DNA of 64,000 nt from Mycetocola miduiensis (lineage in GTDB: Bacteria; Actinomycetota; Actinomycetes; Actinomycetales; Microbacteriaceae), in NCBI RefSeq assembly GCF_900115155.1, contig NZ_FOVM01000002.1, positions 250,550 through 314,549 on the forward strand. The letters are read 5' to 3'. The notes beneath the pieces are model-generated. The model ran no database searches. It was not told where the DNA came from and saw nothing but the letters and a program-made list of their open reading frames with translations. Position numbers and translations under genes: made by a program. Below are positions 48,666 to 50,699 of the stretch, piece by piece (position 1 is the stretch's first letter; the number at the start of each line of letters is the position of its first letter).

Positions 48666-49025
48666 TCAGCCCCACCCGAGGGCGTGCAATTCGTCGTCGT
48701 CGATTCCGTAGAAGTGAGCGATTTCGTGCACGAGGGTGATGCGCACCTGCTCACGGAGCTCAGTGGCATCAGTGACGATGTGCAGCAGTGGCTCCCGGTA
48801 GATGCTGATCATGTCGGGGAGTTCACCGAAGCCGTACTGGCCTCGGTGGTCGAGAGAGACGCCGTGGTACAGGCCGAGCAGGTTGAGGGAGCCGTCCTCC
48901 GGGCGATCTTCGATCACGATGGCCACGTTGTCGAGACCGTTGACCATGTCGTCGGGGAGGCTGTCGAACACGTCGCCGACGAGGGCTTCGAAGGTGTCTG
49001 CATCCATGTCGACCATGTGCGTCAC
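48666..49025 (-). CDS. Zinicin-like metallopeptidase family protein
   Basis: A protein of about 119 residues of the small zinicin-like (DUF1025) family. The metal motif is VHEIAHFYGIDDDELHALGWG, with HExxH and a downstream Asp, near the C-terminus. The rest (FEALVGDVFDSLPDDMVNGLDNVAI and LLGLYHGVSL) is the conserved N-terminal part. No substrate is known for the family. The start is unclear among GTG 49025, ATG 49016 and ATG 49010; the ATG at 49010 gives the more usual length. It is downstream of tRNA-His on the same strand. Confidence 0.82.
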   Translation of the reverse strand: MTHMVDMDADTFEALVGDVFDSLPDDMVNGLDNVAIVIEDRPEDGSLNLLGLYHGVSLDHRGQYGFGELPDMISIYREPLLHIVTDATELREQVRITLVHEIAHFYGIDDDELHALGWG

Positions 49026-49066
49026 CGTTCTGGGCTGCTACCGCATTGCGCCTGGCGCTTGCTACT

Positions 49067-49129
49067 TGGGGTGAGTAACGGGGCTTGAACCCGCGACCTC
49101 GCTTTGGTGCTGAACCACAACCAGGCGCT
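49067..49129 (-). pseudogene. Decayed partial tandem copy of tRNA-His
   Basis: Bases 49054-49100 are identical over 47 bases to 49124-49170, an offset of 70. On the minus strand the copy holds the TTGTGGT anticodon loop, the T arm, the 3' acceptor strand and CCA, but lacks the 5' acceptor strand and D arm. It has a nine-base expansion in the anticodon 3' stem, so it cannot fold as a tRNA. Confidence 0.85.
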
Positions 49130-49136
49130 TGCTACT

Positions 49137-49213
49137 TGGGGTGAGTAACGGGGCTTGAACCCGCGACCTCCTGGACCACAACCAGGCGCTCTACCAACTG
49201 AGCTATACCCACC
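49137..49213 (-). tRNA. tRNA-His (GTG)
   Basis: A complete cloverleaf on the minus strand. The acceptor stem GTGGGTA pairs with TACTCAC, the anticodon arm is CCTGG-TTGTGGT-CCAGG with anticodon GTG, and the T loop is TTCAAGC. The extra G at -1 (from C49213) faces C73, the histidine identity pair, and CCA is encoded. Confidence 0.96.
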
Positions 49214-49261
49214 ATGCGCAACTCACGGCCGGGACCGTTCGATTGCAACTATGGAAGTCTA

Positions 49262-49882
49262 TTACACAATTCGGGTGTAGTTGTTCACTACGGTCGCTGC
49301 GACGGATTTGGCTTCGTCCGATGTCGGCCCTGGCAGAGGAACGAAGGCTGCCTCGCGGTAATACGCGAGTTCGCGGATCGATTCAAGGATGTCGGCGAGG
49401 GCGCGGTGGCCGCCGTCCTTCGCGGGCGCGTTGAAGTAGATCCGTGGGTACCAGCGACGGGCCAGTTCCTTGATGGAGGACACGTCGACGTTGCGGTAGT
49501 GCAGGTGCGAGTCGAGGCGAGGCATGAATTTCGCGAGGAATGCGCGGTCGGTGCCGATCGAGTTGCCGGCAAGTGGAGCCTTCTGCTCGTCGGGGACATG
49601 ACTGAGGATGTACTCGAGGGCCTGGAATTCGGCATCCGCGAGGCTGACGCCGTGGGGGATCTCCTCCAGGAGCCCGGATGACCGGTGCATGTTCGTCACG
49701 AACTCGCCCATGTTCTCAAGCGCGGAGGCGTCGGGCTTGATGACGATGCTGATTCCGTCGTCGATCGGTTTGAGGTCGAAATCGGTGATCACCACCGCGA
49801 TCTCCACCAGTTCATCGACAGCGAGGTCGAGCCCGGTCATTTCGCAGTCGATCCATACCAGGCGGTCGCTCACATTACTCAT
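49262..49882 (-). CDS. orn: Oligoribonuclease
   Basis: A 206-residue DEDDh 3'-5' exonuclease that degrades 2-5-nt RNA fragments to mononucleotides and clears pGpG. The four acidic residues and His are seen: WIDCEMTGLD (D and E) at the N-terminus, SIGTDRAFLAKFMP (D) in the middle, and DGGHRALADI (H and D) near the C-terminus. ATG 49882 is 6 bases after TAGCAT, so leaderless. The length is slightly above the usual 180 because of a C-terminal tail. Confidence 0.95.
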   Translation of the reverse strand: MSNVSDRLVWIDCEMTGLDLAVDELVEIAVVITDFDLKPIDDGISIVIKPDASALENMGEFVTNMHRSSGLLEEIPHGVSLADAEFQALEYILSHVPDEQKAPLAGNSIGTDRAFLAKFMPRLDSHLHYRNVDVSSIKELARRWYPRIYFNAPAKDGGHRALADILESIRELAYYREAAFVPLPGPTSDEAKSVAATVVNNYTRIV

Positions 49883-49888
49883 GCCCTA

Positions 49889-49894
49889 ATGCTA
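49889..49894 (-). promoter_or_regulatory. -10 hexamer of orn (leaderless)
   Basis: TAGCAT on the minus strand ends 6 bases before ATG 49882. Confidence 0.65.
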
Positions 49895-49987
49895 CTTGCG
49901 ACCTGCGACCTTCCCCGCCGACACCGGGGTTGGCCGGGTGACGCTGCGGCAACGGCACTGGTCGCTGCGGTATTCTGGGTTCTGCCC

Positions 49988-50060
49988 GCCTCCGTAGCTC
50001 AGGGGATAGAGCAGGAGCCTTCTAATCTCTTGGTCGCAGGTTCGAATCCTGCCGGGGGCA
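49988..50060 (+). tRNA. tRNA-Arg (TCT)
   Basis: A 73-base tRNA: acceptor GCCTCCG with CGGGGGC (one U-G pair), D arm GCTC...GAGC, anticodon loop CTTCTAA giving TCT (Arg, AGA codons), and T loop TTCGAAT, discriminator A. CCA is not encoded. The anticodon stem has one C-U mismatch next to the loop. Confidence 0.93.
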
Positions 50061-50183
50061 CTTTCAAAAACGCTTCGTCCCGTTCGTCTGACGCAGATGC
50101 AGGGTTTTCGGGATGCTAATCGACATGTGCGTCAGACGAACCACTTTCGGCGGATCTCCAGCAGCCTCGGTCACGATCGTCCA

Positions 50184-50699
50184 ATGAACCCATCGCTGCG
50201 TTTACGCCGGCCCGTTCCACTGCCCGCGGGTCGTGGGCAGGAGTCCGTGTGGGACTACCCGCGGCCACCACGCGTTGAGGCAAGTTCGGAACATGTGGCG
50301 ATCCGTCTCGGTGGCCGCGTGATCGCAGAAACGATGCGTGCGCTGAGGGTCCTCGAGACGAGTCATCCGCCCGTCTACTACCTGCCGAAAGATGCCTTCG
50401 CCGACGGAGTGCTAACGCCCACTGGTGGGTCGACGTGGTGCGAGTTCAAAGGCAAAGCGGAGTATTTCGACCTATCGGCGGGGGATGCCACGGTCCACCG
50501 CGGCGCCTGGCACTACCCGGCACCGAGGCGGGCTTTCGAACAACTCGTCGGCCTGGTGGCCGTCTACCCGGGCCTGATGGACTCGTGCGAAGTCGACGGC
50601 GAGATCGTTCGGCCCCAGGAAGGCGGCTTTTACGGCGGTTGGGTGACCTCGCGGATCGTCGGACCGTTCAAGGGGACGCCGGGGACGACGGGCTGGTAG
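50184..50699 (+). CDS. DUF427 domain protein
   Basis: A 171-residue protein of the DUF427 family, small all-beta proteins of unknown function. Family segments are [51 protein letters not shown] and the C-terminal [18 protein letters not shown]. Start ATG 50184; no strong ribosome-binding site is visible, and the frame extends upstream to 50097 through sequence lacking similarity. It follows tRNA-Arg by 124 bases and precedes nadE by 56 bases on the same strand. Confidence 0.8.

Follow-up and report, generated by a model that had tools for sequence, protein, structure and literature searches.

How does a tRNA gene come to be followed by a second copy of its own back half? The question is raised by an intact tRNA-His gene of Mycetocola miduiensis (Microbacteriaceae; 3.3 Mb genome, labelled G000), which lies in the window analysed here – the whole stretch of 64,000 nucleotides at positions 250,550 to 314,549 of contig NZ_FOVM01000002.1. 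A second tRNA 3′ end is often taken as the footprint of a mobile element, a reading that fails at this tRNA-His gene. Comparison with hundreds of related genomes suggests that the copy belongs to a type of repeat that recurs among them: 3′ parts of a tRNA are stacked behind the parent gene, and their anticodon arm is changed or missing. Repeats of this class lie behind ordinary tRNA genes and are skipped by tRNA callers.

Organization of the tRNA-His locus

The features of the locus are listed in Table 1. The initial annotation described 47 identical bases at 49054-49100 and 49124-49170 (offset 70) and a 16-base stretch common to 49114-49129 and 49175-49190 (offset 61), and both are present; the 47-base identity is far above chance expectation, and a repeat search lengthens the two matches to 50 nt (98%) and 20 nt (95%). 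Its account of a duplicated tRNA-His 3′ half, without the 5′ half and with a 9-base expansion, beside the intact gene is likewise exact in its coordinates. By exact search, the last 31 nt up to the CCA are identical (49067-49097 and 49137-49167) and the 13-nt spacer is present twice (49054-49066 and 49124-49136), and the variable segment measures 14 nt against 5 in tRNA-His, a gain of 9. The same annotation called the half copy decayed, which is not what we see: not a base differs in the T arm, acceptor 3′ strand and CCA, and it is the anticodon arm that is changed, with its loop retained.

Table 1. Features of the M. miduiensis tRNA-His locus, in window positions
Feature	Position	Strand	Evidence
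Intact tRNA-His, anticodon GTG, CCA encoded	49137..49212	-	ARAGORN; Rfam RF00005, 66.1 bits
70-bp repeat unit: 7-nt spacer AGTAGCA + tRNA-His 3′ half	49067..49136	-	Repeat search, exact coordinates
tRNA-His 3′ half copy, 63 nt, from D-arm 3′ strand (AGCGCC) to CCA	49067..49129	-	Exact search; no tRNA call
Altered anticodon arm, 29 nt, able to pair as an extended hairpin (10/12 positions)	49097..49125	-	Pairing analysis
Variable segment with 9-nt expansion; tRNA position C39 replaced by T	49100..49113	-	Exact search, His copy alignment
Variable-loop end + T arm + acceptor 3′ strand + CCA, same as parent tRNA	49067..49097	-	Exact search
Second copy of 13-nt AGTAGCAAGCGCC, opening a truncated next unit	49054..49066	-	Exact search
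Upstream neighbour: exonuclease, Pfam RNase_T	49262..49882	-	ORF; PF00929, 91.3 bits
Downstream neighbour: zincin-like metallopeptidase	48666..49025	-	ORF; PF06262, 99.5 bits
tRNA-Arg (TCT), commonest array carrier in relatives	49988..50061	+	tRNA call

Neither ARAGORN nor Rfam calls a tRNA at 49067-49129, the intact gene being the only tRNA-His called, and the half copy does not make up the cloverleaf of a tRNA gene (5′ acceptor strand, D, anticodon and T arms). An assembly error is unlikely, because the independent assembly of a congener (G001) has two extra copies and similar arrays occur in single-contig assemblies (G132, G140). The RNase_T exonuclease gene, which we take to be that of oligoribonuclease (orn), adjoins tRNA-His in relatives as well. 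No half copy was found beside the tRNA-Arg (TCT) gene of the window; a decayed Arg half copy with a C37 loop lies downstream of tRNA-Arg in congener G001 (L034), with none in M. miduiensis.

tRNA-His half copies in Mycetocola and other genera

The six genomes of the genus Mycetocola have zero, one or two extra units in an unchanged gene context. Congener G001 has two, of 73 bp each and mutually identical (the same array is present on NZ_RCUV01000007.1 of Mycetocola manganoxydans), G003 has a remnant of the altered anticodon arm only, and no extra tRNA-His unit is present in G002, G004 or G005. The initial annotation proposed searching relatives for either a single-copy state or an element between the CCA-containing repeats; the former is found in the genus, and the junction of tRNA-His and unit holds no element, whether in M. 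miduiensis or in G001. These two genomes share the 9-10-nt expansion, which makes the unit appear older than the species.

In a collection of species genomes, 33 stretches matched a His-specific pattern, 12 with half copies (metagenome bins among them being L128, L129, L132, L145 and L150) and 21 that are complete adjacent tRNA genes as judged by eye. Half copies of the Mycetocola type account for eight stretches, carried by Leifsonia poae (also G333), another Leifsonia, Glaciibacter flavus, three Agromyces, Mycetocola manganoxydans and a Jatrophihabitans bin, the last of a different order from Mycetocola. The tRNA-His 3′ copies of four actinobacterial bins (L129, L132, L145 and L150) are of another type, starting at a different point of the tRNA, and do not enter the His counts.

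In each of the nine His copies compared, C39 has been replaced and 9-10 nt have been gained. The distance from the anticodon arm to the T stem is 33-34 nt, versus 24 in the tRNA, and reaches 49 nt in the A. humatus copy owing to a 16-nt internal duplication. Because copies from Mycetocola, Leifsonia, Glaciibacter, Agromyces and Jatrophihabitans all have the +9/+10 insertion, a single old origin or a specific function seems a better account of it than neutral turnover.

A wider class of repeats behind tRNA genes

A neutral search pattern – two T arms 55-75 bases apart, tighter than is usual for complete adjacent tRNAs – matched 59 of 398 family genomes, and its reversed control none. Of the 54 family genomes examined, 42 have, by script, a called parent tRNA with a half copy behind it (hence at least 42 of 398). 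Three of the other 12 do hold half arrays by eye, giving 45: G146, whose parent contains an N run, G271, whose parent is interrupted by a phage-like element, and G177, at a contig end. On inspection by eye, the matches in G295, G109, G060, G363 and G213, which lie outside the 54, were attributed to complete tRNAs standing side by side or to coding sequence. The pattern permits zero mismatches, so these counts are lower bounds, with decayed units under-sampled.

Within the family, arrays stand behind eight tRNA species: Arg-TCT in 22 genomes, Ser-GGA in 9, Lys in 4, His in 3, Val-GAC in 3, Leu-TAA in 2, Leu-CAA in 1 and Thr in 1, with three genomes carrying arrays behind two tRNA species. Units are mostly 57-75 bp and are present in 1-8 copies; one genome has eight identical 70-bp units in a row, which is what tandem amplification predicts. 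Several arrays reach or approach contig ends (L166, L173, L183), so that counts of units taken from draft genomes may be too low.

Outside the Microbacteriaceae the units look rarer. The pattern matched 27 of 296 phylum genomes, with half copies confirmed in G511 (Trp), G472 (Val-TAC), G510 (Arg-CCT), G488 (Leu-CAA) and G594 (Arg-TCT), a set that leaves out the script matches L099 and L109; it also matched 71 of 248 order genomes, where four more were confirmed in a single family: G711, G806, G726 (Thr) and G845 (Arg). The script covered 30 phylum loci and four order loci, and most matches beyond the family look by eye like complete adjacent tRNAs or coding sequence.

Changes in the anticodon arm

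Copies of ANN-decoding tRNAs have A37 – presumably the site of t6A modification – replaced by C in 63 of 65 aligned copies as scored by script; in the remaining two (L264) a one-base insertion puts the alignment out of register, and they read TGTCAT, so that they too have C at 37. This count skips one misaligned Arg-CCT copy and copies holding N, and in one of the 65 the masked parent has N at position 37. At any single position from 33 to 75 other than 37, at most 13 of the 65 copies are changed; the T-arm-pair search pattern leaves position 37 untouched. The replacement spans 33 loci, four isoacceptors and four families: Arg-TCT at 22 loci in Microbacteriaceae (seven genera by genus labels) and in G845 and G594 of two other families, Lys-TTT at four loci, Thr-TGT in two families (one and three loci), and Arg-CCT at one locus in a fourth family. 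By eye, the change in Val-TAC copies is at A35, A37 has been lost from Trp copies, and the anticodon arm of the parent is missing from copies of Ser, Leu and Val-GAC; no intact anticodon arm is present among the units read. Ile, Asn, Met and Ser(GCT) tRNAs are not represented in these units.

The replacement of A37 by C over four isoacceptors and four families is a sharp and testable regularity, and it raises the question of why tRNA fragments should retain almost everything but a modifiable anticodon loop. One answer, which we hold to be possible though doubtful, is a convergent actinobacterial class of repeats in which the T-arm end stays host-like and the anticodon loop is never readable or modifiable, either to supply a functional RNA that depends on its loop being unmodified or to guard against integrases that use the anticodon loop. 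In the one case at hand, a phage-like element of G271 has a 15-bp core that includes A37, and it sits in the real tRNA and not in the C37 copies.

At L265 (G594:C59), an anticodon-arm fragment with C37 is found upstream of an intact tRNA-Arg gene as well as downstream.

Correspondence between copies and host tRNAs

The 24-nt 3′ block of an Arg-TCT copy matches that of its own tRNA exactly in 37 of 39 cases, over five tRNA variants, and none of the 39 is closer to a foreign variant. Over all tRNA species 50 of 89 copies are exact, with 2 of 24 for Ser-GGA and 0 of 4 for Val-GAC. Five of the species have two or more tRNA variants, and none of their copies resembles another variant more closely. 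The Arg tracking is explained by exchange between repeat and parent or by recent amplification, and the Ser and Val results are weaker.

Proposed origin of the repeats

We think it probable that these are tRNA-linked tandem repeats that arose through short-range duplication, exchange sequence with the parent gene, and pass a filter against a working anticodon arm. A tandem duplication at the 3′ edge of the gene, by slippage or unequal exchange, would copy the 3′ part of the tRNA together with the downstream spacer. The native flank CCAAGTAG of several congeners has GTAG in common with the D loop (GGTAGAG), a possible starting microhomology; four or five bases can match by chance. Repeat and parent, 60-75 bp apart, would then keep exchanging sequence over tens of identical bases, and such continued exchange would hold the T-arm and acceptor end parent-like as well as gain and drop units. 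Only units with a disabled anticodon arm would persist – by A37 to C in the ANN-decoding set, a rebuilt longer arm in His, and no arm in Ser and others – because the unit would be transcribed in the tRNA 3′ trailer, where a working, modifiable anticodon arm may disturb decoding or modification. Duplication, exchange and turnover of units agree with the structure, distribution, copy-number variation and Arg tracking that are observed.

Several observations count against this origin. Simple slippage as the usual source should give fresh copies with an intact arm, which the units read do not include; the +9/+10 insertion common to His copies of five genera suggests something other than neutral turnover; the uniform change of A37 to C is more specific than a filter would require; copies follow the parent exactly and strongly in Arg, and not everywhere; and no terminator-like site was found in the stretch.

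Structure of the units and a possible RNA function

The half copy could alternatively be a selected non-coding RNA, cut from the pre-tRNA trailer and serving as a small RNA or as a protein decoy, in which the rebuilt hairpin and the unmodifiable loop would be the working parts. A uniform C37 across four isoacceptors and a nearly fixed length of the His insertion would fit such an RNA, and rRNA-linked repeats of E. coli yield RNAs that bind Hfq and CsrA, according to the accessible part of PMC8144298. The variable segment of the His copies is also complementary to the arm beyond expectation: eight copies (that of A. humatus left out of the pairing tests) can form 71 of 96 pairs against 56.3 in shuffles, with 10 of 20000 shuffles reaching 71, and without the two strongest copies there are 50 of 72 pairs against 41.7 (297 of 20000). 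Some His copies are likely to have an extended arm.

Other results speak against an RNA function, which we regard as unlikely. Swapping variable segments among the His copies still gives a mean of 69 of 96 pairs, with 914 of 20000 swaps reaching the observed value, and since swapping keeps most of the pairing the covariation is weak. By energy, two of the eight His arms are exceptional and two are less stable than their shuffles, and the combined Fisher value of 0.0016 is carried by two arms; the M. miduiensis arm alone is not significant (p 0.09 by pairs, 0.25 by energy). When the T arm was fixed and the upstream part shuffled in 50 units (L164 and L086 skipped, their T loop not being found), z was below -1 in 11 and above 0 in 25. 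Median z was +0.75 for Arg-TCT (18 loci), -1.73 for His (9 loci, Fisher 5e-5) and -4.0 for Val-GAC (3 loci, Fisher 4e-4). General selected RNA structure is rejected for Arg by these values and is weak for His by the pairing and energy tests. The arrays are, moreover, patchy and decaying.

Slippage, reverse transcription and coding capacity

A recent slippage duplication private to the species, with nothing more to it, would account for the doubling of unit and spacer together and for copy numbers that differ among congeners. We nevertheless judge it improbable: the derived changes (C39 replaced, +9/+10 nt) are common to four further genera, one of them of another order, and a congener retains an arm remnant, so that the copy looks older than the species. 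The initial annotation had offered simple slippage as its alternative; tandem slippage survives as such, and a recent private event is not a full account, since the same arm changes recur in other genera.

A reverse-transcribed tRNA copy was considered because position 37 is, as we assume, a modified base and His copies start near the D loop; it was rejected, as the spacer is included and no CCA has been added where the gene encodes none (e.g. L084, L162). An open reading frame through the array was dropped by eye, there being stop triplets in some units and many lengths that are not multiples of three.

Relationship to known systems

The closest known kind of repeat is the tRNA-linked repeat (TLR) of E. 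coli, including the tyrT repeats (rtT RNA), which have a spacing of 178 bp. The Rfam model of RtT RNA, which we take to be RF00391, has no match at E up to 1 in 48800-50300. As described in the accessible part of PMC8144298, TLRs lie directly behind a tRNA or rRNA gene, copy the gene's own 3′ end, have 18-19 bp in common with it, and number 1-5 units per locus, with a unit spacing of 150 bp in the rRNA case; they were first described in 1978 and were without known function until the rRNA-linked ones were studied. The Mycetocola unit resembles them in being immediately downstream of a tRNA gene in the same orientation, in a 3′ end identical to that of the upstream gene (31 nt to the CCA), and in number, with one unit in M. 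miduiensis and two in G001 falling within one to five; relatives have 1-8, some thus above five.

There are also differences. TLRs share 18-19 bp with the gene, whereas the actinobacterial units hold 24 to about 60 nt of tRNA and are shorter, mostly 57-75 bp; the hosts differ, E. coli for the TLRs as described and Actinomycetota for the present units; and a change of A37 is absent from the TLR account in the accessible part of PMC8144298. On our reading of that text, the rest of a TLR unit is non-tRNA, whereas the Mycetocola unit is mostly tRNA-derived and is therefore a variant of the TLR kind, not a member. The regularity at A37 bears on the TLRs of E. coli. Large-scale tandem duplications giving a new tRNA gene in Pseudomonas fluorescens, as summarised in the accessible part of PMC7661048, are alike in being tandem events at a tRNA locus and differ in copying a whole gene, as opposed to 3′ halves only. 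No such Actinomycetota arrays were recognised in the literature covered, which was judged mostly from titles and the beginnings of abstracts, with subscription papers mostly outside it.

Integrative elements at tRNA-His and tRNA-Arg

Genomic islands of Burkholderia and Frankia are flanked by tRNA 3′-end repeats, and partial tRNA genes in an archaeal set have been attributed to integration or CRISPR activity (PMC2612704, PMC4117964 and PMC9897764, in their accessible parts); integration as the source of a partial tRNA does not fit the tRNA-His half copy. The corresponding explanation, put forward in the initial annotation, is an attachment-site scar: an element entered tRNA-His, restored the gene, left the old 3′ end behind and was later lost. 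tRNA-His does serve as an attachment site in the family. Of 249 family genomes, 72 contain its exact 24-nt 3′ end, four of them in more than one place; in M. miduiensis and G001 the additional ends are those of the half copies. In G139 the repeats are 6,490 bp apart, running from the T stem to 14 bases beyond the CCA, and an open frame between them matches Pfam Phage_integrase (50 bits). In G094, probably a second instance, repeats of 25 nt from the T-loop edge are 1,066 bp apart, and no integrase was identified in the element.

The same elements show how the half copy departs from a scar. Their repeats begin only at the T arm, which is 37-39 nt into the span of the half copy, and their second tRNA-His ends have no tRNA-like sequence upstream. 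The half copy, for its part, reaches back into the D arm and takes in the spacer; the relatives searched gave only T-arm-type repeats around elements. The half copy and such attachment-site repeats are alike in placing a second 3′ end near a tRNA, with tRNA-His itself the target in relatives, and differ in start point, spacer, tandem arrays and the lack of an adjoining integrase or element. Neither in M. miduiensis nor in G001 does an element or integrase adjoin the half copies, the nearest Pfam integrase matches being 40 kb and 39 kb from the array. Integrase genes are present in 25 of 25 genomes checked (24 of them array carriers), and in the 18 genomes with array and Pfam integrase match on one contig the nearest is 39-322 kb away. 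Arrays of up to eight identical units are impossible as scars of separate elements. A 20-base signature of the altered His arm matches in 4 of 398 family genomes, beside tRNA-His in M. miduiensis, G001 and G333 and, in a chance-like match, in G382, with no tRNA in its 3-kb locus; viral contigs have no exact match to the His or Arg signatures. An element in G271, also with a Pfam integrase match, entered tRNA-Arg(TCT) from the last anticodon base, and the anticodon loop region is carried by Arg and Lys half copies too, which would favour a scar. On balance we consider a scar very improbable.

Searches with the unit gave one match among plasmid records, a tRNA-His gene in a 26-tRNA cluster of Pseudarthrobacter plasmid pPA-B-2242 (L230), and one among phage records, at the end of an unannotated record with an unaltered tRNA-His part.

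The G271 element (L225; contig C1, about 1006700-1024065) is phage-like, extends over ~17 kb inside tRNA-Arg(TCT), and encodes an integrase (Pfam, 48.4 bits). Its 15-bp core, TAATCTCTTGGTCGC, starts at the last anticodon base. The host tRNA-Arg(TCT) is left split, the element brings its own complete tRNA-Arg(TCT), and the half-copy array lies downstream of the far end of the element.
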